Shown here in pieces: positions 9,456 to 62,333 of a stretch of DNA of 64,000 bases. Position 1 is the first letter of the stretch. Each line of letters begins with the position of its first letter. The notes under the pieces were generated by a model. The model was not told the origin of the DNA and made no database searches. It saw only the letters and a program-made list of their open reading frames with translations. The position numbers were made by a program, and so were the translations under genes. The DNA is taken from assembly GCA_030062745.1 (NCBI GenBank), contig CP099851.1:6077661-6141660 (forward strand). Direction: 5' to 3'. This DNA comes from Capitulum mitella. Taxonomy: Eukaryota > Arthropoda > Thecostraca > Pollicipedomorpha > Pollicipedidae.

Positions 9456-9900
9456 CGAGTCGCCGGACGGCCCACCGGCGGAAACCGGTCTTCAGCGAGC
9501 CGAAACTAATACGTCCGCCCCGCCGGCTCCCTCTCCGCCTGCTCGCGTTCGGCTGGAGCGCCGGCCGGGGTTAGAGGGTGGCGGCGGCCGCCGATGCCGT
9601 TGGGGAACGTCCGCGGAAGCTGCCGCTGCGCTGAGCGCCGGCCCGGCGGCGCGATGCCGCTGCACGGAGGGCCGGGTCGCGGCTCGGTCGCGGGGTTCCC
9701 CGCTCGAGGTTTGCCAGGGTCGCCGGCCGCAGGTCTGTGCGCGGGCCGGGCTGGTGGTCGCGGGCTCCTGTCCGCGCGGCGCTAAATCGGCGAGTGTGTC
9801 CTGCCGGCGGTCGATGGTCGACGGTCGGACGCGCCGGCCGCCAGGCGGCGCCAGCGTCAGCTCGCCGCCCTCATGCTTTATTTTGAAATAAATTAGCAAC
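9456..9900 (+). other. GET4 3' UTR with poly(A) signal
   Basis: GC-rich untranslated sequence after the GET4 stop, ending in AATAAA at 9,887-9,892. The next kilobase (to 11,075) shows no recognisable gene. Confidence 0.7.
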
Positions 9901-11075
9901 GTTTGATCCTATTGGCCATGTTCTTTGAGTGGGAGCGCTGTAATGGAGTTGTGCTCGCGGTGTGGCGTCAGCAGTAAGGCGGTCGAATTTTTTCAGGACG
10001 GACGGCGTCTGTGCACGTCGTTCGAAGAACGGGCTGCCGGGGCATCAGGTTTGGTGGGAAGCTGTGAATAATAGTTTTCATTATGTGCCTGCAAAAAAGC
10101 TGTTACGGACCAAGGAGTGTTTTCGCGCTCCGGTGATGCCAGGCAGACGCTGATGTTTGTTCGGAAGTAGTTTTACGCAGACATGGAACCGGTCATCCGC
10201 AACACAGACACTTGCTGTATACCTTTCCATAAGCCATTCCCACCTCTGTGGTGGTGACACTGCCAATGGGCCTGGTACGTTCTTTTCTCAGATCCGGCAT
10301 TCCGCGTACAGTGAAGCCATCGCGAAAATATTTATTCATGTTTCTTGCGAACATTGCAACCGTCGCGAAATTATCGGCGCTGGTTTGGATTCCTGCTCGT
10401 TAGCACGAGATTCATTAGATGAAGTGACACTGGGTCGGCATTAACGTTAACACTGCCAAGGGGACCAAGCTGCCACTCAGCGATAAATGACGCCATATCG
10501 TCGAAGCCATGCCACGAAACCTTCGGTTTTGGGAAGGAACATACGGAAACCCTGGATTCTAATATCGCTCTGCTGGTTTACAACGTGCATCAGCTGCTCC
10601 GTCCTCTGCGAACTGTGGTGACCTAACATATTTTGCACCTCTAATCTTCCGGCCGGCGTCCGTGTTGACACTAACACCAAACGCCTCTAAGAGAAGCCTC
10701 CAACAGGAGTCACTGGATCCCCGGCAATGTTGGTTCACGACCGTGGCCCGTACTATCCAGTTAATGCAACGTCCTGGACGCAGTTCGCGTGCATCCCTTA
10801 CTCATCGCTACGAACAAAGGCTCACAACCAATCGCCGTTTTGCTAAGTCTCCTGAAACACACTTTAGCATGTGCGAATAACGATTCGTTCTTGAGTGCGG
10901 GACGGAGAAAAATCACAGCTGGCTTCAAACTGTACTGCACACGCATTTTCCTTCACCACCACACCAAACATGTCACCCCCATGGCAGGGTCTCGAACAAA
11001 GTCTGCTGTGCTCTTAGTCGCGGGCCCCTGCGCGCTCTGCATCGTCACGCGATTGGCCGTTTCGGCGCCGATCCC
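9901..11075. other. spacer between convergent GET4 and SAXO-like genes
   Basis: No gene recognised. It probably includes the SAXO-like 3' UTR; TTTATT at about 10,330 would be AATAAA on the minus strand. It is almost identical to 18,084-19,258. Confidence 0.45.
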
Positions 11076-12036
11076 TCAGAGGACGGCGGGCGCCTTGAAC
11101 AGCTTCAGGGGGTCGGCGTTCTTGTACTTCCCCTCCACGCGCAGGTCGCCGACGGCAGCCTTCCTGGCCGGCGAGCGGGCGGCGGCGGGCTCAGCGGCCG
11201 CGCCGTCGTCTCCGCCCGCCACGGAGCCGGTAGACGCGGCCGACCCCGCGGCGCGGCGGCCGAACCTGGCCTCGCGGCGGCCGGCCGAGCCGGCCGCGCC
11301 GTCCGCCGCGCCCTCCTCCGTCTCGAAGCTGATGGGCGTGTAGCGGTCGGCGTACTCCGACCGGCCGCCGACCTGGCCCTGGGGCCGGACGTTGTCGGCG
11401 GCGCGCCGGCGCGGCGGCCGACCGCCGGCCCGGCCCCGGTAGCTGTCCTTCACCTCGGAGACGCCCTGCATCTGGCCCTCCTGGCGCAGGTTGGCGCCCA
11501 TGGTGAAGCGCTCCGGCTTGGGCGCCGCGTGGCCGCGGAACTTGTCGTCCGTCTCGGCGATCTCGCGCATGTCTCCCTCCGGCTTCAGGTTGCCCGTCAT
11601 CCTGGCCCGCTCGGGCTTCTTCGCGCTGTGGCCCTGGTATTTGTCGTGGATTTCCGTGTTGCCGTCGACGCCACCTTGGGGTTTCAAGTTGCCTTGCATG
11701 GTGTATCTTTCAGGTTTCTTTGCGTCGTGTCCTTGATACCTGTCATGAACCTCTGTGTTTCCGTCAATACCACCTTGTGGCTTGAGGTTCGGTTGCATCG
11801 TATATCTGTCAGGCTTTTTTGCGTCATGCCCACGGTATTTGTCGTCGAACTCCGAGATTTCCTTCATGTCGCCATCCTGTCTTAGATTTCCCTTCATCGT
11901 GCGTCTTCCTGGCTTTCTTGCATCATGACCTTGGTACTTATCGTGAACTTCCATGTTTCCATCGATTCCACCTTGCGGTTTCAAGTTTCCCTGCATCGTA
12001 TGCCTGTCGGGTTTCTTTGCATTGTGGCCTTGATAC
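11076..12036 (-). CDS. SAXO/MAP6-like repeat protein, 3' part cut by scaffold gap
   Basis: Minus-strand C-terminal coding sequence, open from the gap edge at 12,036 to a TGA at 11,076-11,078. It carries about eight 33-residue modules with [16 protein letters not shown] followed by a Tyr and KKPERYTM. The modules degrade towards the C-terminus, which is Ala/Gly/Arg-rich and ends FKAPAVL. It is the counterpart of 19,259-20,219, at a constant offset of 8,183 and with about seven visible substitutions. It is incomplete only because the contig stops inside the repeat array. See the full gene at 19,259-25,316. Confidence 0.7.
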
Positions 12037-12536
12037 NNNNNNNNNNNNNNNNNNNNNNNNNNNNNNNNNNNNNNNNNNNNNNNNNNNNNNNNNNNNNNNN
12101 NNNNNNNNNNNNNNNNNNNNNNNNNNNNNNNNNNNNNNNNNNNNNNNNNNNNNNNNNNNNNNNNNNNNNNNNNNNNNNNNNNNNNNNNNNNNNNNNNNNN
12201 NNNNNNNNNNNNNNNNNNNNNNNNNNNNNNNNNNNNNNNNNNNNNNNNNNNNNNNNNNNNNNNNNNNNNNNNNNNNNNNNNNNNNNNNNNNNNNNNNNNN
12301 NNNNNNNNNNNNNNNNNNNNNNNNNNNNNNNNNNNNNNNNNNNNNNNNNNNNNNNNNNNNNNNNNNNNNNNNNNNNNNNNNNNNNNNNNNNNNNNNNNNN
12401 NNNNNNNNNNNNNNNNNNNNNNNNNNNNNNNNNNNNNNNNNNNNNNNNNNNNNNNNNNNNNNNNNNNNNNNNNNNNNNNNNNNNNNNNNNNNNNNNNNNN
12501 NNNNNNNNNNNNNNNNNNNNNNNNNNNNNNNNNNNN
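12037..12536. other. scaffold gap, exactly 500 N
   Basis: A round 500-base run of N is a placeholder of unknown true length. It joins a contig ending in the SAXO-like array to one beginning in GET4 intron 1. Confidence 0.99.
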
Positions 12537-12683
12537 AAAATGATAGTTTTGGGCTTTATCAAGCCAGTTCCAAAAGCAATGTTACACCTAATCTTAGTAA
12601 CATAGTTTATGGTTTTGCAACAAGAAACTGTAATTGGCTTAAATTAAATTGCATTTTGTGGTTTAAACCACTAGGTGGTTTAA

Positions 12684-13884
12684 CTCTATTCGTAGAGGTC
12701 CAGACAGTATGGTCGATTCCCGTCAGGGGGTGGATTGGCCCCCCCCTGAGATCTCAAGAACTACACATCCGATTTCATCGCAACAAAGGGCAATCGATTT
12801 GCCATGACGTGAACTACATGTTTATAAAAAGGAAGTTTCAAAATTTTGGAAGCGGGGGATACAGGGGGCAGAAATGTCGAAATTAGGGTATTTTTGGACG
12901 TGTGATAATCCTGTTGTGTATGGACCAATTTCGATGAAACTGGTATGAATCGAGAGATTATGGATAGGAATTGTACCATTGGTGCACACATCGGAAATTT
13001 CGAGAAAATTCATGGGCATTCACAGGGTTTCAAAAATAGGGGGATTTGTTTTTCAGCAACTCAATGAATAAAAAAGGCAGACACTTTTTTGGCTTCTGCT
13101 AGTCGTGTCCTGCTAAAGAATTACGATGCGCATTACAATGTTTGTATAATGTTAGCATAGACGGTGCCAGGGACATGAGAAAGGGGGAACTATCATGGTC
13201 ACATGTTCTTCAGATCAACTTGTGGTCATTGACCTTAAATGACCTCCTGTGACCTTGGAGCCACTTGGAATGATTTTGTGTGTATGTAATATTATCTGTA
13301 AATCTTTTCAATCATTTGAATTCATTCTATTTCAAAAATTTCATTTTATGGCCATTGCGATATAGGGTACGCACATTGACATTTTAGGTCATAGCTCCGT
13401 GGCCCGACCTGATATGAAGCTGAAACTTGATACACAAGTAGAGGGCACCTTTCTACGACATATGTATTCAGGGTTTGGCATTTGAAACAAACAGCGCAGA
13501 AATTATTGCCATAAAACCAAATTTTGACATTTAACCTTCATCTGACATTGTAAAGTGACCTCACATAAACAAAGTTGTATATGCATGTTGCCCAGCTATT
13601 TGGCCATGGATCCGTATGAAGTTTTAAGTTGTATCTTAAAAACGCTGTTTTTGGCAGGCATTTTCCTTTGACCCTGAATAGGGCCAAAAATGGCCTGAGG
13701 TGCCTTCCAAAAACGTTGCCTGGCTCCACCCCGTGCCAAATGAAATTTTGAAATTTTGTCATGTCACGTAGAAAGAATACCTAGGAAAAGTCACCAAGTT
13801 TTGTGAAGCTGTGCCAAAAACCCTGGAATTGACAAGCAAAAAACCGTAGGTGCGGCGGATTTAGCCCTCCTGCCGGGAATTGGG
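12684..13884. mobile_element. TTAA-flanked element, family 2, full length
   Basis: Starts after TTAA at 12,680-12,683 and ends before TTAA at 13,885-13,888. The ends are C-rich (CTCTATTC) and G-rich (GGGAATTGGG), with further inner GC-rich inverted stretches. The body is AT-rich without a coding frame. It is the fuller version of the element at 4,845-5,884. Confidence 0.7.
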
Positions 13885-14340
13885 TTAAATTAAGTTAGAC
13901 CAGCCAGGTTAAACTGCAGTTTAAACTGGTTTAAACCATGCATTGGTTGAAATCTGCCAACCCTGACAGAAACTATGACTGAGCAAACCATGCCTGGTCA
14001 TGGCTTAGGAAATATGAAAACGCTTTCTGTGTTATGTTAGTGTGTTACATTTCTGTCATGTACGGTCATGTACAGACATGTACGGTCATGTCATACAGAG
14101 ACAGGTACAGTCGTGGACAAGTGGTTTGATCATTGTGCACTGTCATGTCTAGTACTCAGAAGTGATGCAGTAGTCCTAAAGATGACCATGGTATCTGCTG
14201 AAAAACACTGGGAGCAAGAGGTGATCTGAGTTGTAGTTATTGTGTCATGTCTGAGAACATATGCATGTTGTCTGGTTGCAATCACAGAGTGATGGAGAAA
14301 CGATCAGAATTCAAGATGATCTTGATGTCTGTGATGACAG

Positions 14341-17300
14341 GTACTCAGGGATGGAGAAATGGTCAGAGCTGAAGACTCTCCTGCTGGATGGTGCCAAGCT
14401 GCTGCTGTCCAAGGGTCAGACAGAGAGTGGCGCGGACCTCGCCTCCCTCTATGTGGATGTCCTGGCCAAGTCGGAGTCATCTTGTGATGCTCAGAATATC
14501 GCCAACATTGCCAGGTGAACAGGAGCAGGCCAGGCTGGAGGGGGGAGGGATTACTGAAGCTGGGGCTGGCGAAACTCTACGTATTTGACACTTAATAGAT
14601 TATGTACCTGTTGCTGTTCACAGTTGTCAGTTTTGACAGTGAAGTCATGTTTAAAATTATCAGTCGGTACACTTAGCAGTTGCCTTGTGTTCCATGTTAC
14701 ACTGTTGACTGATGTCACACTCTTCCATGTCTGAGATGGTGTACCGTCCATCTTTCCCAGTCCTGGTTGTCCCCCTGACGACGTTGCCTGTTGTCAGTCT
14801 GTTCCCAGCCAATGACGTCGGGTTCGCCGACTATCCTGGCCGTGCTGTCTGTTGTCGACTATTGTCGACTGTTGTCCACCTGACACTGACACACCTGTGG
14901 TCAGTCGGTTTGCGGCCATTGACGCCGAATTCGCTGACTATCCTGGCGGCGATTGTCCACCTGACACTGACACATATGTCTGACACAGTCTGTTCGCGGC
15001 CATTGACGCCGAGTCAGCAGACCGGTCGTCGTTTTTGGCGCGCGCCATTCGCTGGTCCCAGCAGGCGGCGCCCGACGGCAAGGGCGGACACCCGGACCTC
15101 CACCAGGCCGTCGGCATGGTGCTCTGGAAAGGTGCGGCGAACGAGCTGCGGCCATGCCGGCCACCGGCCGCGTGGTGACGCTCTGTGCTGTGCGGAAATG
15201 ACGCAGTTGAATTCTGTTCTTGTCGTTTTAAGGCGCTCATATGCTATGTGTTTGCTATTTTGAGAGACTAGGATTTCCTGGTTAGTCAGAGATTAACGAA
15301 AAAAATAGGCATGAGAACTTTCCAGACAGTCAGAAACTGACAAAAACTACACCGAGTTTCCGAACGTAAACCTTTTGGAAAATTCTAAAACTTGAAACGT
15401 TTTGAGGAGTTTTGGTGACGCGCAATCGATTTTAAACACCAGAAGTGCTTTTTTAAATATCGTTTTAAAGACGATGATCTAATTTGAGATCTAATCTAAT
15501 GATGTGGCCGTGCTGGTTGCAGAGGGTGACCTGGTAGGTGCCAGGTACCACCTAATCCGCTCATCAGACGGCCAGAGCTGCGCGCGTCTCTTGGTGGATC
15601 TGCACACACAGCGGGGAGCTGCCGACGAGATAGACCTTTTCATCACTCAGGCCGTCCTGCAGTCAGTGCACAATCCTACTGCTCTGTCTCTGCTGTAGTC
15701 AGTGCAGGGAATTGGGTCCGAAAATGGTGACCTCATTGCAAAGGCTGTGCTCTGTCCAGTTTGCAGTTTACACTTGCACAGTGGTGACCCCTGTTGCTTG
15801 GAAGCGAAGGCGCCTCTCACTCGATGCTCTTGGTATGGGAGACCGTGCTGTTCAGACTGTTCTGTTTAGAACATTCTGGTGTGTCATCAGTCGTGCCTGT
15901 GGGTTTTGGTGACTAACCCAGATCATTCTCTTGTGTGAACGAAATGGTTTCTATGCAATGTTCGCCCAATTTTGGACCATGGCGACGCCCGCGCCGATGG
16001 CCAGAACGTGGTAACCCAGGCCGTTCTGTTGACCCCGACCTGTTGACCTCAGCCTGCGGGCCCTGACCTCGTGACCCGGTGGGACCGCAGGTACCTGGCG
16101 CTGAAGAACAAACGCGCCGCCGCTGCGTGCTTCTCCGGGTACCTGAAGTGCCACCCGCTGGTGCAGACGGACGCGCCGCCCTTCACGCTGCCGCTCTTCA
16201 ACTTCCTGCACTACCTGCTCAAGGCCGTCGAAAGGTACCCGGCCATGTTGGGAGAGATCTAGCTGTCCTTCAGTTTGTTGAAGAGGGGTGGCCTGCTACG
16301 GATTTTTTTTCGTGCTGTTCTTTCGCGCTTTGTATGCGAGGTTGGAGTTTGGTGTGCGTACGTTTTGTACCTGTCCTCTGGTCTGTGATTAACTCCCAGC
16401 AGTTTCGATAGTACAGAGTGTTTTCAGAGCGTTTCTGTCTGCCTTCTTGTGGCATTGCTTTCCATACCATATCCCTTGTGACCCCGTTGCTTGAGCCGCC
16501 TGGGACCACCTTGTACGACATCGCCTCTTGGAGAGCTATCTCCCATTTCTGTCTAACCTCTGGTGACACCCCTCCCCCCTCCCGGCTTCAGCGGCGAGGC
16601 AGGCCAGTTCCGCACGCTGTGCCACATCTACCGGCCCAGCCTGGAGCGGGACGCCACGTTCGCCAAACTGCTGGCTCGGATCGGCCGCATCTTCTTCGAC
16701 ATCCAGCCGCCGCAGAGGCAACAGGGAATGCTAGGTGGGAGCTGTGTGCCGCCAGTGGTGTACTGTGACACTCAGATGGGGTGTGTTAGATGTCAGCTGC
16801 GTGCGGGCAGTGGTGTACTGTCGCACTCTGACAGAGCGTGCTGGGTGTGAGCTGTGAGCTGGCAGTGATATACTGTCGCACTCTGACAGAGCGTGCTGGG
16901 TGTGAGCTGTGAGCTGGCAGCGATGTACTGTCGTCCTCAGACGGTGTACTAGATGTGAGTCCCCCTCACTCGGGCGTGGTTGGGCGTGGTGCTGTGTTGT
17001 AGGTTGGCTAAGGTGCCGATGGTTTGTATTGGGCGACTTTATGGCTGAATGTTGGATAGGTTTGAAATGACGATGGTGCAAGTGCGTCTGTCATGCATGA
17101 TGGCACTGATGTCTCCTTACATACCTGTCATTGTCGTTACCTGTGTCACGCTTTGAGATACCTGGTTCTCCAGAGGTCTCCCAGGTCTCCCAGGTTGTCC
17201 CTGCCACATCTGGCAGCGTGATTCAGTCATTTTGAGTGCCAGGTTGCCAATACGTCTGGCCATGTAGCCACGTTGCCAAACGCAACGATGTTTAACCTGA

Positions 17301-17626
17301 TCGAGAGGCTGATGTGTCAGGATGTGGTTATCACGCCGTCAGGCAACATCCAGCGTCTGACGTGTCAGTGTGTGGATGTCGCGCCGCCAGGCAACCTGAT
17401 CCAGTCGCTGATGTGTCAGCGTTTGGTTATCGCGCCGTCAGGCATCATCCAGTGGCTGATGTGTCAGTGTGTGGATGTCGCACCGCCAGGTAACCTGATC
17501 CAGTCGCTGATGTCCGGACTGGAGGGCGGCGACGATTCGGACTCGGACGGCGACGCCGCCTCGGGCACCTCCACCAAGTCCCCCGTGCCCAAGGTGGCCA
17601 AGATGGACACGGGCGAGCTCGACTGA
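14341..17626 (+). CDS. GET4: GET4 exons 2-7, second copy without exon 1
   Basis: Exons 14,341-14,514; 14,989-15,131; 15,523-15,661; 16,091-16,234; 16,592-16,734; 17,490-17,626. All are the same lengths and phases as in the first copy. I see two residue changes (Glu to Gln in DAQNIAN; RIFFDIQ in place of RLFFGIQ) plus silent changes, and no frame damage. No start-containing exon exists after the gap, so on its own this copy could not make GET4. The simplest reading is the other haplotype of one locus. A true tandem partial duplication is possible but would need the start exon to lie inside the gap. The poly(A) signal is at 18,070-18,075. Confidence 0.85.
17300..17500 (+). repeat. in-frame 48+51-bp repeat, two pairs
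   Basis: Same repeat as at 9,189-9,340 but with one extra 48+51 pair (99 bp) before the exon 7 acceptor at 17,490. The open frame runs from about 17,273 through the exon to the stop. Confidence 0.7.
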
Positions 17627-19258
17627 CGAGTCGCCGGAACTCGCCGGAACCGGCCCAGCGGCGAAAACCGGTCTTCAGCGAGCCGAAACTAATACGTCCG
17701 CCCCGCCGGCTCCCTCTCCGCCTGCTCGCGTTCGGCCGGAGCGCCGGCCGGGGTTAGAGGGTGGCGGCGGCCGCCGATGCCGTTGGGGAACGTCCGCGGA
17801 AGCTGCCGCTGCGCTGAGCGCCGGCCCGGCGGCGCGATGCCGCTGCACGGAGGGCCGGGTCGCGGCTCGGTCGCGGGGTTTCCCGCTCGAGGTTTGCCAG
17901 GGTCGCCGGCCGCAGGTCTGTGCGCGGGCCGGGCTGGTGGTCGCGGGCTCCTGTCCGCGCGGCGCTAAATCGGCGAGTGTGTCCTGCCGGCGGTCGATGG
18001 TCGACGGTCGGACGCGCCGGCCGCCAGGCGGCGCCAGCGTCAGCTCGCCGCCCTCATGCTTTATTTTGAAATAAATTAGCAACGTTTGATCCTATTGGCC
18101 ATGTTCTTTGAGTGGGAGCGCTGTAATGGAGTTGTGCTCGCGGTGTGGCGTCAGCAGTAAGGCGGTCGAATTTTTTCAGGACGGACGGCGTCTGTGCACG
18201 TCGTTCGAAGAACGGGCTGCCGGGGCATCAGGTTTGGTGGGAAGCTGTGAATAATAGTTTTCATTATGTGCCTGCAAAAAAGCTGTTACGGACCAAGGAG
18301 TGTTTTCGCGCTCCGGTGATGCCAGGCAGACGCTGATGTTTGTTCGGAAGTAGTTTTACGCAGACATGGAACCGGTCATCCGCAACACAGACACTTGCTG
18401 TATACCTTTCCATAAGCCATTCCCACCTCTGTGGTGGTGACACTGCCAATGGGCCTGGTACGTTCTTTTCTCAGATCCGGCATTCCGCGTACAGTGAAGC
18501 CATCGCGAAAATATTTATTCATGTTTCTTGCGAACATTGCAACCGTCGCGAAATTATCGGCGCTGGTTTGGATTCCTGCTCGTTAGCACGAGATTCATTA
18601 GATGAAGTGACACTGGGTCGGCATTAACGTTAACACTGCCAAGGGGACCAAGCTGCCACTCAGCGATAAATGACTCCATATCGTCGAAGCCATGCCACGA
18701 AACCTTCGGTTTTGGGAAGGAACATACGGAAACCCTGGATTCTAATATCGCTCTGCTGGTTTACAACGTGCATCAGCTGCTCCGTCCTCTGCGAACTGTG
18801 GTGACCTAACATATTTTGCACCTCTAATCTTCCGGCCGGCGTCCGTGTTGACACTAACACCAAACGCCTCTAAGAGAAGCCTCCAACAGGAGTCACTGGA
18901 TCCCCGGCAATGTTGGTTCACGACCGTGGCCCGTACTATCCAGTTAATGCAACGTCCTGGACGCAGTTCGCGTGCATCCCTTACTCATCGCTACGAACAA
19001 AGGCTCACAACCAATCGCCGTTCTGCTAAGTCTCCTGAAACACACTTTAGCATGTGCGAATAACGATTCGTTCTTGAATGCGGGACGGAGAAAAATCACA
19101 GCTGGCTTCAAACTGTACTGCACACGCATTTTCCTTCACCACCACACCAAACGTGTCACCCCCATGGCAGGGTCTCGAACAAAGTCTGCTGTGCTCTTAG
19201 TCGCGGGCCCCTGCGCGCTCTGCATCGTCACGCGATTGGCCGTTTCGGCGCCGATCCC
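17627..19258. other. GET4 3' UTR and spacer, second copy
   Basis: Near-identical to 9,456-11,075. It contains the AATAAA of GET4 at 18,070 and no recognised gene. Confidence 0.6.
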
Positions 19259-22200
19259 TCAGAGGACGGCGGGCGCCTTGAACAGCTTCAGGGGGTCGGC
19301 GTTCTTGTACTTCCCCTCCACGCGCAGGTCGCCGACGGCAGCCTTCCTGGCCGGCGAGCGGGCGGCGGCGGGCTCAGCGGCCGCGCCGTCGTCTCCGCCC
19401 GCCACGGAGCCGGTAGACGCGGCCGACCCCGCGGCGCGGCGGCCGAACCTGGCCTCGCGGCGGCCGGCCGAGCCGGCCGCGCCGTCCGCCGCGCCCTCCT
19501 CCGTCTCGAAGCTGATGGGCGTGTAGCGGTCGGCGTACTCCGACCGGCCGCCGACCTGGCCCTGGGGCCGGACGTTGTCGGCGGCGCGCCGGCGCGGCGG
19601 CCGACCGCCGGCCCGGCCCCGGTAGCTGTCCTTCACCTCGGAGACGCCCTGCATCTGGCCCTCCTGGCGCAGGTTGGCGCCCATGGTGAAGCGCTCCGGC
19701 TTGGGCGCCGCGTGGCCGCGGAACTTGTCGTCCGTCTCGGCGATCTCGCGCATGTCTCCCTCCGGCTTCAGGTTGCCCGTCATCCTGGCCCGCTCGGGCT
19801 TCTTCGCGCTGTGGCCCTGGTATTTGTCGTGGATTTCCGTGTTGCCGTCGACGCCACCTTGGGGTTTCAAGTTGCCTTGCATGGTGTATCTTTCAGGTTT
19901 CTTTGCGTCGTGTCCTTGATACCTGTCATGAACCTCTGTGTTTCCGTCAATACCACCTTGTGGCTTGAGGTTTGGTTGCATCGTATATCTGTCAGGCTTT
20001 TTTGCGTCATGCCCACGGTATTTGTCGTCGAACTCCGAGATTTCCTTCATGTCGCCATCCTGTCTTAGATTTCCCTTCATCGTGCGTCTTTCTGGCTTTC
20101 TTGCATCATGACCTTGGTACTTATCGTGAACTTCCGTGTTTCCATCGATTCCACCTTGCGGTTTCAAGTTTCCCTGCATCGTATGCCTGTCGGGTTTCTT
20201 TGCATTGTGGCCTTGATACCTGTCATGGACCTCCGTGTTTCCGTCAATACCACCTTGTGGCTTAAGGCTTGGTTGCATCGTATACCTGTCAGGCTTTTTT
20301 GCGCCATGCCCACGGTATTTGTCGTCAAACTCCGAGATTTCCTTCATGTCGCCGCCCTGTCTTAGATTTCCCTTCATCGTGTACCTTTCTGGCTTCTTTG
20401 CGTCATGGCCTTGATACTTATCGTGAACTTCCGTGTTTCCATCGATTCCACCTTGCGGTTTCAAGTTGCCTTGCATGGTATACCTTTCAGGTTTCTTTGC
20501 ATCATGGCCTTGATACCTGTCGTGGACCTCCGTGTTTCCATCAATGCCGCCTTGTGGCTTGAGGTTCGGCTGCATCGTATACCTATCAGGCTTCTTCGCA
20601 TTGTGACCTTTGTACTTGTCATGCACTTCCGTGTTTCCGTCAATGCCACCTTGCGGTTTCAAGTTGCCTTGCATGGTATACCTTTCAGGTTTCTTTGCAT
20701 CGTGCCCTTGATACCTGTCATGTACCTCTGTGTTTCCGTCAATACCACCTTGTGGCTTGAGGTTCGGTTGCATCGTATACCTGTCAGGCTTTTTTGCGCC
20801 ATGCCCACGGTATTTGTCGTCAAACTCCGAGATTTCCTTCATGTCGCCGTCCTGTCTCAGATTTCCCTTCATCGTGTACCTTTCTGGCTTCTTTGCGTCA
20901 TGGCCTTGGTACTTATCGTGAACTTCCGTGTTTCCATCGATTCCACCTTGCGGTTTCAAGTTTCCCTGCATCGTATGCCTGTCGGGTTTCTTTGCATTGT
21001 GGCCTTGATACCTGTCGTGGACCTCCGTGTTCCCGTCAATACCACCCTGTGGCTTGAGGTTCGGCTTGCATCGTATACCTATCAGGCTTCTTCGCATTGT
21101 GACCTTTGTACTTGTCATGCACTTCCGTGTTTCCGTCAATCCCACCTTGCGGTTTCAAGTTGCCTTGCATGGTATATCTTTCAGGTTTCTTTGCATCGTG
21201 GCCTTGATACCTGTCATGGACCTCCGTGTTTCCGTCAATACCACCCTGTGGCTTGAGGTTCGGTTGCATCGTATACCTATCAGGTTTCTTCGTATTGTGA
21301 CCCTTGTAGTTGTCATGCACTTCTGTGTTTCCGTCGATTCCACCTTGCGGTTTCAAGTTGCCTTGCATGGTATACCTTTCAGGTTTCTTCGCATCATGAC
21401 CTTGATACCTGTCATGGACCTCCGTGTTTCCGTCAATACCACCCTGTGGCTTGAGGTTCGGTTGCATAGTATACCTATCAGGTTTCTTCGTATTGTGACC
21501 CTTGTAGTTGTCATGCACTTCTGTGTTTCCATCGATTCCACCTTGCGGTTTCAGGTTCCCCTGCATGGTATACCTGTCTGGTTTCTTGGCATCGTGGCCC
21601 TGGTAGTTGGCGTGAACCTCAGAGGTTCCATCGATCCCTCCCTGGGGTTTCAAGTTCCCCTGCATGGTATATCTGTCTGGTTTTGGGGCGCCGTGTGCAT
21701 TGTACCTATCGTGGAACTCCGTGGTACCGTCGATCCCTCCCTGGGGCTGCAGGTTTCCCTGCATGGTGTAGCGATCGGGCTTGTGAGCGTTGTGACCCAC
21801 ATAGCTGTCGTGCACCTCAGTCGTGCCGTCGATGCCCCCTTGTGGCCTAAGGTTACCCTCCATAGTGTACCGGTCCGGCTTGGCGGCGTCGTACCCCTTG
21901 TACTTGTCGCGCACCTCAGAGGTACCCTCCATGCCGCCCTCCGGGTGCAAACTGTTGGCCATGGTGTACCGTTCCGGTGCACCTCCGTCGTAGCCCTGGT
22001 ACTGTTCGCGGGCTTCGCTCGTGCCGTCTATACCTCCGGCAGGGGCCAAGTTGTTCTCCATTGTGTACCTGTTGGGAGGAGGGATCATTGTCAGGATGGT
22101 TTTCGTTAAACTGGCAAAAGGGATGGTTAATGTGGAGCTGTTTTCTACCGCGCTCGCGGTTAACCATGCGCTGCTGTCAAGCTGTACGGCGTTGTTGGGG

Positions 22201-23499
22201 GAGTAGGGGGCTATTGTCATGTGCGTATAGTTGGCGACATCAGCGACGACTTGACTTCAGTGACGGCATTTGTAACGACGCCCTTTTCCGCCAATATGAA
22301 ATTAAAGTAGCTAAAGAACTGCTCAGCGGGCAGATATGAGGCCTTAACAAAAGATATGTGTCACTGTCATATTGCTCTTCAACGGCAAGGTTAAAGGCCA
22401 GATGCAATCTCTGTCCCTAACAGTCTCATGTGTAATAATCATTCCTCGCTCAAGAAGGATGTGCAGCAGAGACTACTGAGTTTTTATGGGCAGCTGTCAA
22501 GGTCATGGGTCAAGGTCAAAAGCCGCATTGAGATATTCGGTACCCTTTCATGCTTGAAAACTGACTTATGCATTGGGTTATTTTACATGGTTAACCTCGT
22601 GGCAAGGGAAGATCCTGTCAACGCTTTTGTTTGTCAGGGCTTTTCTCCCTCGTGTAACTGGAATGCCATTTTCAGATTCGCCGTGCTAATGTTTCTGGCT
22701 CAGGAGCGTTGCTGTTCCGTGCTTCCGTCGTGCAGCGCACCGAAGAGGACATCTCCCCTTCGGCAGTCATGCTCCAGGCCTTGCCAGCCTGCAGGGCTTC
22801 TTGTCAGCGAACTGAAATAGCACGTTCCGTTCCATAAACATGGCGCGTAGACTTGACGCACGTTCTGGCTCGCCGGCACCGGAAGGGTGCGTACCTCTCC
22901 GGCTGCTGGTACTGGTACTGGCTGTACTGGTCCGCCACCTCGGAGGTGCTCGTCATTTCGCCCCCAGGCACCAGGGAATCAGGGACGGTGTACCTCTCCG
23001 GCAGCTGTACGTCGTATCCTGTGGGCACCGTCACGTGACAAGTCAGCTTACAGAAAGGTCGTATACTGACATGCCTTTGGTCGCAACAGTCTTCTAACGG
23101 GTTGAACTAGAAAGCCGAATCGTCACCCGATTAGCTTGTTTGACGAAGGTATACAAGACTGACTTATGGCTGGATTCAAAGGCACGTAAGTGGTATTTGC
23201 CGGAGCAAGATGTCTGAAGGTCGCTTTGATGGAAATGCTAACAATTTAAATTCGGTTCTTGGCGCTGATAACGCATCCTAAGAACGATCGATTAATTACA
23301 CGGTAAAAACGAGAACATGTCTAGCTTGTTCATCCATTTTCCTTCGGAAACCGTCGGGTTGAATTAGTTTGCGGTCTGGCACAAAGGCATCCATATATTA
23401 CACTTAGCGCGCTATTTCCTATACTCTACCCACCCAATGCAATTTCTACGATTAGCCACCCATGTAATACTTTTGGACAAAATCCTCATCTGGGAAGAA

Positions 23500-42149: not shown

Positions 42150-43671
42150 TCACTGAGCATCTCGCGCGCCGGGAGCACCAGGCTGGTTCAGGGCATCCGC
42201 CGACCGGCCGTACGGCGGGCACAGGTACTCGTCGACACAGACACTGCCGTACGGACACTCCTGCGGAGGGATGGAGAGAGAACACTACACCCTGCAGCAC
42301 GGGACACAGGTTCTCGTTGTACCACGTGCCGCACAGACACGCCGTACGGACACCCCTGTGGAGAGATGGAGAAAGAACACTACACCCTGCAGCACGGGAC
42401 ACAGGTTCTCGTTGTACCACGTGCCGCACAGACACGCCGCACGGACACTCCTGTGGAGAGATGGAGAAAGAACACTACACCCTGCAGCACGGGACACAGG
42501 TTCTCGTTGTGCCACGTGCCACACAGACGCGCCGTACGGACACCTCTGTGGAGAGATGGAGAGAGAACACTACACCCTGCAGCACGGGACACAGGTTCTC
42601 GTTGTACCACGTGCCACACAGACGCGCCGTACGGACACCTCTGTGGAGAGATGGAGAGAGAACACTACACCCTGCGGCACAGGACACAGATACTCGTTGT
42701 ACTACGTACCACACAGACACGCCGTACGGACACCCCTGTGGAGAGACGGAGAGAGAACACTACACCCTGCAGCACGGGACACAGGTTCTCGTTGTACCAC
42801 GTGCCACACAGACGCGCCGTACGGACACCCCTGTGGAGAGATGGAGAGAGAACACTACACCCTGCGGCACAGGACACAGGTTCTCGTTGTACCACGTGCC
42901 ACACAGACGCGCCGTACGGACACCCCTGTGGAGAGACGGAGAGAGAACACTACACCCGGTAGTATGAGGACCCAGGTACTCATCCAGAGACACTCGCGGA
43001 ACCACAATACGACGTACCACGTGCGTCGTACCACGACGCACGACGTACCACAGTACCACAGTACCACTCGAGACACCCCTGTACCACAATGAGTTCACTA
43101 ACACGAATCTTGCCAGAAAAGAAATCTCCAAACATCAGCAACTGAGCCGGGAAGGATGCACTAAACATCATACCGGCAGAGGCATGCCGTCCTAGTGCAA
43201 ACAACGAAACTCCGCCATTTAGACAGTGGAACTGTCGGGAAGAAGCACCGCAGTTCAAAAGAGCGTTTTGCGTTGATAACATTTTCCATTGGGTTTCTTC
43301 AACCGTTCTGCATTTACGTTTTTAACGTGCCGTATTCTGAATTCCCCTTCGTTCACCTCTACTGCATCCATCCTAAAACGGATAGCGTCAAACTAGCGGA
43401 ATCGTCGTCGCCACGTTACCTCGTAGGAGTCCTTGGGCGGAGAGAAGGCGGCGCTGTGTGCGGAGATGCCGCCGCCACCGCCGTGAGGGGCGGGGCCAGG
43501 CGAGGCCCCGCCCAGCGAGGGGGCGTGGCCAGAAGCTGCCCGACCGGCCACCGGCGCCGCCCAGCCGTCGTATAGCGGCGGCCGACCGGCCAGTGGGTGA
43601 GCGGCGCAACCGCCCAGCCCGGCGGCCAGCAGCACCGTCCAGGCGCCTAGCACTGGAGCACAGCGGGGCAC
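42150..43671 (-). CDS. secreted Cys-motif protein, two exons around a minisatellite
   Basis: Exon 1, 43,420-43,671: ATG followed by a hydrophobic signal sequence (VLGAWTVLLAAGLGG), then a Pro/Gly/Ala-rich stretch ending PKDSYE, donor GAG|gtaacg in phase 0. Exon 2, 42,150-42,260: acceptor ccctccgcag, phase 0, reading ECPYGSVCVDEYLCPPYGR and ending in a stop after RDAQ. Joined directly it gives 120 residues. The C-x-V/P-x-Y-L-C spacing recalls the Cys knot ahead of the catalytic domain in arthropod serine protease homologues, a weak resemblance. The sequence at the stop also forms a strong donor (gctca|gtgagt), so the gene may continue below 42,150. Exons derived from the 95-bp array could lie between the two. 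Confidence 0.5.
42225..42957. repeat. 95-bp minisatellite, about eight units
   Basis: Unit boundaries ctgtggagagatgg recur at 42,356, 42,451, 42,546 and on to 42,926, exactly 95 bp apart; the first unit is variant. Because 95 is not a multiple of three and the unit lacks stops on the plus strand, long plus-strand frames appear in all three phases; these are not genes. On the minus strand every unit holds a polypyrimidine-AG acceptor and a variant of the Cys exon next to it. Confidence 0.95.
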
Positions 43672-51401: not shown

Positions 51402-54381
51402 CTACAGCTGCCTGCTGTCCACCTCGGTCCTGATGACGCCGTATCCGGCCGCCGCGCCGAACACGTTCTCACGGGCTCTCGTTAGTTGCTTTCCGCACAT
51501 CTTCACCCATTGGCCGTGGAATGCAGGGGACCTCCATGAGCTCGTCCAGGAACCCGGTTATCTCTTCCTTGGTGGGGGAGCAAATCAACAGCAGTTCTTA
51601 ACCCTATTCCCGGCAGGAGAGGGGCTGGATCCGCCCCCCCCCCCTCGGGCTTTTCGCTTGCCAATTCCAGGGTTTTTGACGCAGCTTCACGAAACTTAGT
51701 GACTTTTCTAGCTACTCTTTCTATGTATTGCAAAAAAAAAACCAATTCTATTCTGTTCAAGGGTGGAGCTAGGCAACGTTTTTGAGAGGCACCTCAGGCC
51801 GTTTCTGGCCCTCTTCGGGGTTAAAGGAAAATGCCTGTCAAAAATAGCGTTTTTAAGACAGAACTTAAAACTTTATGTGGATGTAAAGGTGAACAGTTGG
51901 ACAACACACAAATACGATTTTTCCCGCCTGAGGTCACTTCACAAGGCTAGGTCAATGGAAAAACTCAAAATTTGGTTTCATAGTAATGATTTTGGAGCTG
52001 TTTTTGTTTAGAGGCAAACCCAGAATATATATGCCGTAAAATGGTGCCCTCTACTTGTGTACCAAATTTCAGCTTGATATCAAATCGGGTAACGGAGCTA
52101 TGACCTAAGCTATCAGTGCACGTACCCTTTATTGCAATAGCCATAAAATGCAGTTGTAGAAATGGTGAACTCGAATGATTGGAAACGTTTTGGAATAATA
52201 AACTTCAGATCGCTCGTATATCACCTAATATCGCCGTTGGTAACGCATGGCCGGGAGAGGAGAGACGGTCCAAAAATGCCATCTCATTTTTTCGTTTTGA
52301 CGACGCACTAGATATCAGTTTAGTGTGAGAAAATAGATTATCCGCAACAAACATGAGGTCGGAGGCGGGGAGGGATTTCGCCCCCTCCACTGGATTCCAG
52401 CAGGAGATTTCCAGCGTGAAGCCCTTTCAGAACGAAGTCTCATTTCAGGGACGTCTCAGCAAGAACATTCTACACTGTTGCTATTCAGAAGAATGATCAA
52501 TATTTTACTCCATACCAAATATATATTTACTTTGCATCAAACAAAACGTTTTTGTCGAACTTAACCACCTTCTCCCCTCGGTACTCGGTCAGCAGAAATA
52601 ATTTGGCAGTGTCCCCTTCCTCTTTATGAAACGTTCCTACGCCTCTGCGGTGATACCATATACTGCTACTGTATGGGTATCTCACGACAGTACTACACGG
52701 TCGCCCGTTTCGTTCGTTTCGTTGAAATGATATGTATGCAAAGTCATGCATATTATGCACCATTGGTAATCTGCGCGAACGGTTCAGACCTAAACAAGTT
52801 AAGCAGAAGTTGCAGTTATGCAAAGCCATCCAATGGAAAACATCTGTGACATGAGTGGATCCATGCTAGTGACACCATTGTGCTAAAAGTTACGTTCCGA
52901 TTGGTCATCCCGGGCTCATCGGATCGGGGACGGATGACTGACCTACCATTTGCCCTTTTCTGCTTGAATTATCTTGACGCCACTCGAAATGTCTGACATG
53001 GGTAGGGTATGCACATCCGTGTTTTCCAACATTCTCAGCACTAATGTTTACGCTTGTTTAACCCTCGCCGGACGGGAGGGATTTCCACTCACACCGCTGA
53101 CCAGGGGGAGGGGGATAGGCACCTTCCTCACCATTCGCCCCTAATTGAGCTAGCGCCTCGGGACAAGAAGAAATCGATAGCCGTATGCCCAAGGAATCCA
53201 ATGGTAACCGTGTCAACTCCATCAGGTCAGCCAGTGATCTCCTAGGCCAGGTCAGACTTTATGTTTGGGAGCTACAAATTGATTTTCCCCAGTTAAACAC
53301 GACGCATTTGGGGGTCAATTAGGCCTAATATCGTCCCCCCCCAAAAAAATTGCGTAGGAGTATTCCAAGGCCAGAAAAGGTCATCTAAGATCATTGACCT
53401 TGTTTGGCTTTTAAAGGTGATTGGGCTATCTAAAATGACCTGCTCTCATTTGGACTATCATTCTAAACCGATTCCATGCCCGTCATCTGCCGTTTATGCA
53501 TGTCTATTAAAAAGTAAAAAATTGGAAAAAAAGTTTAAAAAAGTGTTTAAAAAAAAAAGAAATTGTCTCCCATTGGGGGATGATAAAAATTTGGGCCCCA
53601 CCCACCCAAGAGATACAAAGTTCCGGCCTTGGTACTGTGTGTGTTTATATGCCGCAATATATTCGGGCGAGTTAAGTGCTGCCGTGTAAACAAACGCAGG
53701 ATATATCCGTTTAACCTCGTGTCATTACCATTAATCTGCCCTGGCAATGACATTCGCCATATAATTATCATAAAAGCTTCTTGTGTACACAATATGAACA
53801 GTTCATTGGCGTGTAAGTTATTTCCATCGCTATTGCTCAGAAATCGCTCATCCGTCATTGCTCGAATTGAATTTTCAAATCCAGTTAGGTGAAAAACCAT
53901 GTCTGGAAAGCACTGCAGCTCGGACACGGCCTGGTCAGTCTCCACGACGCCCTCACAGCCCTCCGGCAGAACATGTCACGTGATCAAGACGCGCTACCTC
54001 CTCATAGCCTCTACCCAGTGCCCCATTCACAGCACAAGTGATCTTATCAGTTTGAGAGCCGAGAGAGTTAGCGCAGTGGCGGAACTGAGAAACCTGCCTA
54101 ACGTCCTCACCCTACCTAGCGTAAATATGGTTTGTCGTGTTTTTCGGCCTAAAATTAAAATATGAAACACAGGATTAAAGTTCTTACGGGTGCTCCTACG
54201 TCGCGGCAAATAGCCGCTCAAATTGCATTACATTAGCACCATAAACACCGGGCCTATGGCCGTTTAACCACGAGAACCCTAATACCTACCGTTACTTTTG
54301 TGGAGGTCTGTACGTACAAAGCCTCAGCCTGGAGCGCGGTTGCGTTGAGCTTGATTCCAGGCTCTCTCGCCGCTGCACAGC
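51402..54381 (-). CDS. unrecognised Cys-containing protein, three 3' exons, frameshifted
   Basis: Minus-strand exons 54,296-54,381, 53,898-53,960 and 51,402-51,567. The first reads GIKLNATALQAEALYVQTST, the second GCEGVVETDQAVSELQCFPD and the third EEITGFLDELMEVP. After dropping one base in a G run (plus strand 51,526-51,529) the third continues FHGQWVKMCGKQLTRAREN and then VFGAAAGYGVIRTEV to a TAG at 51,402. All inner junctions are phase 0 with AG/GT ends, and AATAAA lies about 160 bases past the stop (minus strand, near 51,236). Predicted to be helical, with paired Cys and one N-glycosylation site, so probably secreted. The 5' exons, including any signal peptide, were not found. No family was recognised. 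Without the base removal the third exon stops early. Confidence 0.55.
51602..52200. mobile_element. truncated inverted family 2 element
   Basis: Begins after TTAA at 51,598-51,601 with CCCTATTCCCGGCAGG, the exact reverse complement of the 59,990 end. It runs through family 2 sequence and fades near 52,200. It sits in the intron just 35 bp before the acceptor of the last exon of the neighbouring gene. Confidence 0.7.
53062..53620. mobile_element. family 3 element, inverted, one end clear
   Basis: TTAA at 53,058-53,061 followed by CCCTCGCCGGACGGGAGGG. It matches the reverse complement of 604-1,304. The far end is eroded around 53,570-53,620. Confidence 0.55.
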
Positions 54382-58777: not shown

Positions 58778-59990
58778 CCCTATTCCCGGAGGGCTAGACG
58801 GTATGGCCGATTCCCGGCAGGGGGGGGGGGCGGATTCGGCCCCCCCCCCTGTGATCTCGAGAACTACTTATCTGATTTCATCGCAACAAACGGCAATCGA
58901 TTTGCCGTGACGTGAACTACATTTTTATAAAAAAAAAAATTCGAAATTTTGAAATTTGTGGATACAGGGGGACAAAAATGTCAAAATCGGGGGTACTTTT
59001 TGACTTCTTATAACTCCGTTGTTTATGGACCGATTTCAATGAAACTGGCATGAATCGAGAGATTATGGATAGGGCTTTTACCATGGGTATGCAAATTTGA
59101 AATTTTGAGAAAATTCATGGGCGTTCACAGGGTTTTAAAAATAGGGGGATTGGTTTCCTAATAACTGAATGAACAAAAGAGGCCAAAACACTTTTTTAGC
59201 TTCTGCTAGTCATGTTATGCTAAAGAAGTACAAACCGCATTACAATGTTTGTATAATGTTAGCATAGGCGGTGCCAGGGACATAAAAAAGGGGGAACTGT
59301 CATGGTCACACGTTCTTCAGATCAACTTGTGACCTTTGACCTTAAATGGCCTCCAGTGACCTTGGGGTCACCTGGAATAATGTCGTGCGCATTCAAGATT
59401 ATCTGTAAACGTTTTTAATCGGTTGAATTCACTCTGTTCCAAAAAAATCATTTATTGGCTTTTGCGATATAGGGTACGCGCAATGACATTTTAGGTCATA
59501 GCTCCGTGACCCGACCTGATATCAAACTGAAACTTGGTACACAAGTAGAGGGCACCCTTTTACGTCATATTTGTTCCGAATTTGGCATTTGAAAAAACGG
59601 CGCCGACATTATTGCGAAAAAACAAATTTTGACTTTTGACCTTGACCTGACCTTGTAAAGTGACTTCAGATAAATAAAATTACATATGCACATTGCCCAA
59701 CTATTTAGCTATACATTCATATAAAGTTTTAAGTTTTATCTTAAAAACTCTGCTTTTGGCAGACATTTTCCTGTTACCCTCAACATGGCCAAAAATGGCA
59801 TGAGGTGCCTCCCAAAAACGTTGCCTGGCTCCGCCCCTGAGCGAAATAGAATTTCGAAATTTTGTCACGGCGCGTAGAAGGAATAGCTAGGGAACATCAC
59901 CAAGTTTCGTGAAGCTGCGTTAAAAAGCCTGGAATCGGCAAGCAAAAAACCCGAGGGGGGCGGATTCCGCCCCCCCTGCCGGGAATAGGG
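58778..59990. mobile_element. TTAA-flanked element, family 2, intact ends
   Basis: TTAA at 58,774-58,777 and 59,991-59,994. The ends CCCTATTCCCGG and CCGGGAATAGGG are perfect 12-bp inverted repeats. This is the best-preserved copy. It contains no transposase, so it would depend on one supplied elsewhere. Confidence 0.85.
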
Positions 59991-60440: not shown

Positions 60441-62333
60441 CTAATTGCAATAGCTGCGCGGTGCTCCAGGATCACAGGTCTGGTAACAGCACTCCTGGGC
60501 GATGCCCGCCTGACGTTTTTCTCTCACTCCTGGAGACCAGAGCAGCTGCTGAGAGGACAGCCGTCCATGCTGGGAGTGAGGAGTGAACACCGACTACAGG
60601 AGGATCTGTCGTCGGAGTATGGAGCTCACTCCTGGAGCCAACCGGGACGCCAGCTCCTTCGGTTTGTTCCACCAATTGTCACTGTTCAGGAACTCTGGGA
60701 GACAAAACAGCAGAAGCTATGCCGCGCTGTTGTGTTTCTATTCGTCGTCAAAACTTCTTTAATAAGAATGCCAAGAGCGAGGTCCGAAAGTATTTTCAGG
60801 TGTAAAACGTCGCTCAAAAGGCAGCACGTGGGGTTGATGTCAAGCCATACATATGCTTAACACCCTAGCCACACAAGACAACAGATTCCGATCATTTCAA
60901 TTTACTACATTTTTAAAAATGTTATTTATGGCCATGGTGGTAGGGGGCACACCCTCGAGCATTTTAGGCCAGAGCTCCGTATCCTGGTGACGTTTTTTCC
61001 GTTTGTTATCCTGAAATGGTGCACGGTATTGTTATTACCCGATGATTTGATGATTCGACGACTCGACGAAAACAGCATTGTCGTTATTTGATGCTGTTAA
61101 CTATTTGCCGTGCTTTTTTGCCAACTGAGGTTTCTTTTCAATTTGCCATGATGTATAATGTTAAAGATCATGTTAAATGAACGACAGCAGTGAGTGTTCA
61201 AAAAAGGTCTGTTTCCTGCTGTCACCAGCGCCATTTACGACGGACGAGGGTTCCTCCAGCGCAATTTTGTTCACAGGTTTAATATGGGCAATTAGGCTTT
61301 TCTATTTTCATTTCATAAATACATTTGTCTCTTAAACTGGCCAGCTACGTTACCGCCTACGGCCATTCCATTTTGAGCAGTGTCTTAGTTTCAATGCTTA
61401 GATATTTGTTTTCAAGTCGGATTACCACAAGACCACTGAAACATGCTTCCACTATTCTGTTTACTCGGCTGGAAGTAATTTGAAATTTGCTCCAAGCAGT
61501 TCTACTTGCTTGAGATAAAAGAGTTTAGGGATAAAACTTGAGGTGTCACTTTTTGTGTTAACATCATCGTAAAATAAAATGAACACTGTCGTATACGGAA
61601 GTGCTGCGGACTGAAGGGTTTTGGAACTCGGTGCAGCAAAGCAAGAAGCTAGGGTAAGCAGTTTCAGTAGCATTGCCCTAACAATGCGATAATGACAAAA
61701 AATGCGATGTACTTGTTTGCGATATTTTTGATTGCCGGTATCCCAAATCCCAGACAGATTTGGGATATGTTTCTGCTTCTGTCCTTATATTTTTTCCATC
61801 TCCGTCTCGCCATGCCTTTCCCCTGCCATCTTATCTATTACCTTATTTCTCTCCTGATATTATCGTTGCCTGACAATAACCGGTTACGACTTACTCAACA
61901 TAGCACTGAAAGTAACAGCTGTAATGACTTTACGTCCCACAAGTTTTGTTATGATTAACGTAAAGCAAGTTCTGGGTGAATCTTCTGGGCAGGACTGTTG
62001 TGAGCAAACTGACATGTCAAAGAGCACAGACGACAACGTTCAAAACGTTTTCGCCAGGAACAAGCACAAAGGGGTCCGAACCTAGTTAACGGATGGCAAT
62101 ATCTTCGGCTGTGACGCGCGTGACCAGTGGCGTCACGGGTCACTGCTGACGTCACCTGATGAGGTAGTCCGTTTGCCACTGGGCCCTCTGACGCCGGCGT
62201 CTCCGCACACCCAGACGAGCACGTCGATCAGCTCTTCACCGCACAGGTGGCGGCCGGCAATGTTTTGAGTCGGACTGGCGTGGCGACATACTGCAGCCAG
62301 CAACAGAAGTGTTAACAGCCATGAGCCAGTCAT
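60441..62333 (-). CDS. ILP: insulin-like peptide precursor
   Basis: Two coding exons, 62,156-62,333 and 60,441-60,529, giving 88 residues. Residues 1-20 are a signal peptide (MTGSWLLTLLLLAAVCRHAS). The B chain carries HLCGEELIDVLVWVCG, the insulin C-x11-C pattern with Leu and Val at the conserved core positions. The A chain carries ECCYQTCDPGAPRSYC, the CC-x3-C-x8-C pattern, ending in Asn. KR pairs at 54-55 and 64-65 release a C-peptide of only eight residues. The intron is phase 1 inside the C-peptide, and a second acceptor (tttacag) sits directly before the ATG, both as in animal insulin genes. The donor is TCATCAG|gtgacg and the acceptor gtctccag|GAGTG. The mature hormone would be secreted and act through an insulin-type receptor. 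A third exon lengthening the C-peptide is possible but not needed. Confidence 0.93.
60530..62155. other. intron of the insulin-like gene
   Basis: Phase 1 intron of 1,626 bp. It includes a repeat copy at 61,752-61,862 also found upstream of exon 1, and a decoy minus-strand frame at 61,955-62,060 with CRLCSLTC that lacks the insulin A-chain spacing. Confidence 0.7.
61752..61862 (+). repeat. direct repeat copy 1 flanking ILP exon 1
   Basis: gatttgggatatgtttctgc and a following pyrimidine-rich stretch match 62,370-62,480 in the same orientation. Confidence 0.65.

Follow-up and report, generated by a model that had tools for sequence, protein, structure and literature searches.

A probable decaying insulin-like gene copy within a changing insulin-gene cluster of Capitulum mitella

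The locus studied here lies on the reverse strand of a 64,000-nucleotide stretch of Capitulum mitella DNA (the window; C13:6077661–6141660), at window positions 60441–62333, and it resembles an insulin-like gene. The closest described systems are the insulin and aIGF genes of arthropods. For aIGF genes, sections of the work of Veenstra (2020; PMC7357564) set out the exon layout of the first two coding exons and describe typical insect neuroendocrine insulin genes as lacking two further exons; the same sections state that C-terminal extensions of aIGF are overlooked if a donor before the stop codon is ignored. In Bombyx mori, 25 bombyxin genes are clustered on chromosome 11 and 6 lie on another chromosome, several of them being presumed pseudogenes, and vertebrate insulin genes carry one intron in the 5′ untranslated region and another at a second conserved site (both as stated in parts of PMC3745042). 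For Balanus amphitrite, the portion of PMC3462748 cited here lists a single insulin-related peptide gene (JQ864199). No barnacle insulin gene cluster is evident by title among the papers retrieved on barnacle or Capitulum mitella insulin, and the word insulin is absent from the main text of two Capitulum mitella genome papers.

A sequence-only reading of this locus had proposed a compact gene whose C-peptide has only eight residues and whose A-chain exon measures 89 bp. Our comparison with related copies in the same genome indicates that the locus very probably represents an arthropod insulin-like gene copy undergoing pseudogenisation, and that the eight-residue C-peptide most likely stems from a misplaced exon start. 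A 250-kb part of one chromosome holds no fewer than 18 related copies, nine of which were designated alpha (a1, the window copy, and a2–a9) and nine beta (b1–b9). The best reading of these data is a changing insulin-gene cluster in which the window paralogue appears to be decaying.

The position of the A exon was assessed in a DNA alignment of A-exon regions comprising 20 rows, including the window copy. In the relatives and in the window DNA itself, this exon starts 165 nt further upstream than had been proposed, at a conserved acceptor. The motif TTTTGTCTCCCAG precedes AGTTCC in six of the nine alpha rows (with one change upstream in a3), and the same place is occupied by CTCACAG in a5, CTCACAA in a6 and other sequence in a9; seven of the eight aligned beta rows have acceptors ending in AACAG. 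In the whole copies, the frame is open from this acceptor through LRRQ-LLQSVFTPHSQHGRL-SQQLL-SP into the A chain. Because the window copy retains the acceptor and the following sequence as in the whole copies, its second coding exon would span 60694–60441 (254 nt, or 165 + 89, in agreement with the DNA alignment and gene models) and its C-peptide would comprise 63 residues. This exon holds the remainder of the C-peptide, a KR site, the A chain and a stop codon at 60443–60441. C-peptides of 62–63 residues were present in the whole frames of a3, b1–b5, b8 and c7b, and copies on other chromosomes (c5, c15a, c15b and c2) featured a phase-1 donor with open frames for long C-peptides; the c5 donor was placed by hand at CCG/GTGAG (slash, exon boundary), with the frame kept. 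Several candidate acceptors occur in c15a, c15b and c2, and the long ones were chosen because this stretch aligns as protein with the C-peptide of the cluster copies.

Within this exon, the C-peptide of the window copy is interrupted by an in-frame TAG (60596–60594), at a position where 17 of the 19 other rows have CAG and two C7 rows have CAC. The sequence-only reading obtained an open frame because its splice skipped this codon. Its acceptor (60531–60529, with the AG at 60531–60530 and the exon beginning at 60529) is localised inside the codons TGG TCT CCA GGA, where the paralogues have coding sequence, and neither the 89-bp A-chain exon nor the compact gene built on it is upheld. That reading had named an additional exon between the two, or skipping of the A-chain exon, as outcomes that would overturn it; neither emerged, and the A exon is instead longer at its 5′ end. 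Its question about the folding and cleavage of such a short precursor does not arise unless the acceptor before 60529 is used.

Use of this acceptor would produce a genuine short isoform, an IGF-like precursor made either by the window copy alone or through an alternative acceptor shared by the alpha copies, and several observations speak for it. The site lies in frame with the conserved acceptor, which makes a short product possible in principle, its CAG is common to the alpha rows, and the cysteines and KR sites of the window copy are intact. By eye, most alpha and beta rows carry another in-frame AG 3 nt further on, as GAG or, in b5 and b8, as CAG, and c15a, c15b and c2 each have one possible in-frame acceptor that leaves a very short C-peptide. 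IGFs with short C domains exist. Secretion of the Bombyx peptide BIGFLP with an uncleaved C domain is described in a part of PMC3745042. However, pyrimidines make up 0.63 of positions −20 to −5 at this site versus 0.81 at the conserved acceptor, the nearest upstream AG is 14 nt rather than 20 nt away, and the beta rows read CCG G here and lack that AG. The proline at A16 described below should also impede folding regardless of the C-peptide, and the window copy shows no sign of constraint. We therefore regard such an isoform as quite improbable. Just as little probability attaches to a related scenario in which the alpha clade possesses two in-frame acceptors 165 nt apart, yielding a 63-residue or an eight-residue IGF-like linker, and the window copy has become restricted to the short form with its TAG in the optional part.

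The reading of the window copy as a decaying gene draws on the A chain as well as on the nonsense codon. This chain, QAGIAQECCYQTCDPGAPRSYCN (60512–60444), has the pattern CC-x3-C-x8-C, with the stop codon directly after A21 Asn. Position A13 (60470–60468) is proline in the window copy and leucine or methionine in the relatives, A16 (60461–60459) is proline compared with leucine in all 12 other rows compared, and A15 is alanine. The insulin core buries Leu A16, and a leucine-to-proline change at this position leads to neonatal-onset diabetes with impaired folding in people (sections of PMC8922542 and PMC8514764). Codon changes private to the window copy comprised 15 that alter an amino acid or create a stop and a single silent one, distributed as 3 versus 0 in exon 1 (judged against four alpha rows) and 12 versus 1 in exon 2 (against five), whereas the intact sister a3 showed 4 versus 4 silent. 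By site counts for the ratio of nonsynonymous to synonymous substitution (dN/dS), an excess of this size has a P of ~1e-4 at omega 0.3 and of 0.06 at omega 1. In the exon-2 tree, the end branch of the window copy is longer than any other in the alpha clade (0.087 versus 0–0.036).

Not all of the data point towards decay, and the following weigh on the other side. Pairwise dN/dS between the window copy and alpha rows ranged from 0.54 to 1.10 in exon 1 and from 0.41 to 1.05 in exon 2, but values as high as 1.35 and 0.97, respectively, occur between intact beta copies, so this measure alone cannot tell dead from living copies; b6, b7, b9 and a9 were left out of it wholly, a4, a6 and a7 for exon 1 and a6 and a7 for exon 2, and c7 was the only row from outside the cluster. 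The alpha rows used for the private counts are mostly decaying themselves, and gene conversion may blur these counts. An alanine at A3 is common to the window copy and a8 as protein, although the codons differ. Finally, decay of the window copy would be recent, given that its splice signals, its B chain, its two KR sites and its full set of six cysteines are undamaged.

Another candidate explanation is a functional gene that carries a nonsense allele or an assembly sequence error. A single substitution separates the TAG from the codon of the relatives, and 500-N gaps and nearly identical blocks occur in the cluster. Against this, exon 2 holds eleven private amino-acid changes beyond the TAG, among them two from leucine to proline; these and the long end branch are ill-suited to a single error. 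Seven of the eight other alpha copies are broken as well. This explanation is accordingly considered unlikely, and decay of the window copy is preferred.

Based on these comparisons, the intact relatives would encode an ordinary preproinsulin. One exon would carry the signal peptide and the B chain; the C-peptide would be interrupted by a phase-1 intron, and the second exon would supply the rest of its 62–63 residues together with a KR site and the A chain. By analogy with the family, the precursor is expected to be cleaved at the KR sites and the product to act on an insulin-type receptor. In the window copy, the nonsense codon in the C-peptide and the changes in the A chain would be expected to block folding, and the eight-residue C-peptide would be the product of skipping the stop codon via an AG inside the exon. 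Splicing, loss of folding and loss of function in the window copy are what we infer from its letters. An open frame from the start codon to the A chain over the conserved exons is lost at 60596–60594, and the core leucine at A16 is replaced, so that neither feature expected of a functional insulin gene is found in this copy.

That the locus is insulin-like in origin, as the sequence-only reading had stated, is well borne out. The 88-residue peptide spliced according to that reading matched the Pfam Insulin model (PF00049) with 34.1 bits against a cut-off of 23. The features which it had listed are likewise present: KR sites on both sides of the C-peptide (62174–62169 and before the A chain) and two marks of the superfamily, namely six cysteines in the patterns C-x11-C in the B chain and CC-x3-C-x8-C in the A chain, and a phase-1 intron within the C-peptide, with its donor after 62156, as indicated by the sequence and the gene models and as also found in c5, c15a, c15b and c2. 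The cysteine spacings by themselves are not beyond chance, as 24 of the 60 Markov resamples drawn from the window contained a B-type pattern and an A-type pattern averaged 0.22 per resample. On the B-type figure one might take the locus for a chance array of cysteine codons and no insulin gene at all; the Pfam score and homologous exons at many sites in the genome leave this a negligible probability. A chance motif was rejected on the grounds of the Pfam match and the paralogues, which identify the gene as real and the window copy, from its sequence, as a true relative of insulin genes. The best PDB sequence matches of the same peptide were vertebrate IGF-I and IGF-II, probably because the splice used shortens the C domain. 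We take the C domain of short-C-domain IGF-like peptides to be ~8–12 residues long; with the conserved acceptor the window copy has 63, and an eight-residue form needs the other acceptor. The motif RxxxRxx(I/V) in the B chain, which we take to be the hallmark of relaxin-like peptides, was not seen in the B chain of the window copy by eye.

Coding exon 1 of the window copy spans 62333–62156 (178 nt) on the reverse strand, from the ATG at 62333 to a phase-1 end before GTGACG. Its product contains a signal-like stretch (by eye), the B chain, the KR site and the start of the C-peptide, and its length and its donor TCATCAG/GT are identical in a2, a3, a5 and a8. The ATG is directly preceded by a pyrimidine-rich tract and CAG (62350–62334), a probable acceptor of a 5′ untranslated region intron. 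This agrees with the sequence-only reading, and an AG abuts the ATG in all eight other alpha copies, in seven of nine beta copies (b6 and b9 have CCA) and in c7, c5, c15a, c15b and c2. The coding exons are separated by a phase-1 intron of 1461 nt (62155–60695), the acceptor of which is CTCCCAG in six of nine alpha copies, including that of the window. A C-terminal extension was not seen in the window copy, where a donor before the stop codon was not searched for systematically.

The copies were located by six-frame searches of 477 Mb on 16 contigs with the peptide and with the Pfam Insulin model (E up to 10), which returned 46 and 38 exon matches, respectively. The region C13:6.138–6.388 Mb held 34 of the 46 peptide matches and 23 of the 38 Pfam matches; the others were localised to C2, C4, C5, C7, C13:11.95 Mb and C15, with a single weak match on C12. 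We studied 6130001–6330000 and eleven short stretches as DNA and 6330001–6379500 by the six-frame searches only, and the partly covered copies of C4 and C13:11.95 Mb are left out of the complete gene models. An arthropod origin of the genome is supported by 627 candidate cuticle domains (Chitin_bind_4), 150 of which were listed with scores and marked as exceeding the cut-off; a barnacle is probable. A COX1 search gave no match, so that a mitochondrial contig is probably absent, and a search with Hemocyanin_N, whose negatives carry no weight, gave none either. In the exon-2 tree (23 rows), the nine alpha rows group with support of 100/100, whereas the nine beta rows are poorly supported as a group (32/0).

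Only one of the nine alpha copies, a3, has a whole frame; the other eight carry lesions of differing kinds, one of them common to three copies. In addition to the TAG in the C-peptide of a1, these include a TGA in the B chain of a2, a TAG shortly before the A chain of a5 and a TAG in the A chain of a8. Exon 1 of a4, a6 and a7 is 170 rather than 178 nt long, which breaks the frame, and a6 and a7 are broken in exon 2 too; the B chain of a9 was not found in the exon-by-exon comparison of the cluster. Six of the nine beta copies are whole (b1–b5 and b8). The states of the remaining three were judged from alignments and exon comparison rather than from gene models: a stop codon interrupts the B chain of b6, the matches of b6 and b9 both end within the A chain, and exon 2 of b7 is disrupted by a stop and an insertion.

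Between 6.13 and 6.33 Mb we identified 23 pairs of direct and inverted repeats of at least 2 kb that are 83–99.8% alike. The block containing b5 and a4 (C13:6220370–6240135) recurs as that containing b8 and a7 (6300749–6319326) at 98.9–99.8% likeness, and each has a 500-N gap at one end; on account of such near-identical blocks with N gaps, part of the copy count may represent unpurged haplotypes. Outside the cluster, C15:7844811–7859962 contains two similar, inverted insulin genes ~13 kb apart that are of a distinct GIVDECC type, and a third relative is found on C2.

The window contains other features besides the insulin-like copy. Inverted repeat arms at 51636–52150 and 59449–59963 (67, 149 and 235 nt; 77–90%), ~7–8 kb apart, are perhaps the ends of a mobile element adjoining this copy. 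A direct duplication at 6715–22256 with an offset of ~8.0–8.2 kb (e.g., 6715–7266/14712–15263 and 10881–11882/19064–20065) encloses a 500-N gap at 12037–12536 and is either an assembly error or a recent tandem copy. Long frames of 33-residue repeats occupy 19262–22256 of the reverse strand, with a 99-bp period and 18.7 copies at 19836–21683. One such frame had no match in a PDB search, and matches of a flagellin barrel model to two of the 99-bp-repeat frames (33.1 and 27.1 against a cut-off of 27) were not believed; the cut-off is reached through the repeats alone, with no single stretch passing. A further tandem array, with a 95-bp unit, 7.6 copies and 94% matches, lies at 42235–42957. An open frame of 212 residues with abundant Tyr, Ser, Pro and Gly (39726–39091, reverse strand) appears cuticle-like by eye and has no Pfam match; eight of the ten other window frames searched had no match to Pfam. 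No Rfam family or tRNA was identified in the window, and an NCBIfam search gave no match.

Set against the systems described at the outset, the findings do away with a questionable case of an exceptionally short insulin precursor, which would have originated from splicing round a stop codon in a broken gene. What remains is a local expansion of arthropod insulin genes with segmental copies in both inverted and direct orientation; the beta kind is mostly whole (six of nine) and the alpha kind mostly broken (eight of nine). If the species is a barnacle, transcriptome-based counts of barnacle insulin genes, such as the one gene listed in the cited portion of PMC3462748, may be low. The Balanus amphitrite gene encodes a cirripede insulin-related precursor with the same B-C-A order as here, a likeness drawn from its description and not from its letters. 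Unlike vertebrate IGF-I and IGF-II, the relatives of the window copy code for a C-peptide of 62–63 residues in a conserved exon. The cluster resembles that of the Bombyx bombyxins in combining close grouping with pseudogenes, but most bombyxin genes lack introns, as sections on that species state, whereas the whole-frame copies for which models were built here contain a phase-1 intron. The closest correspondence is with arthropod aIGF and insulin genes: the exon layout of the window copy is that of the first two aIGF coding exons, and the copy differs from them in the nonsense codon of its C-peptide and in the prolines at A13 and A16.
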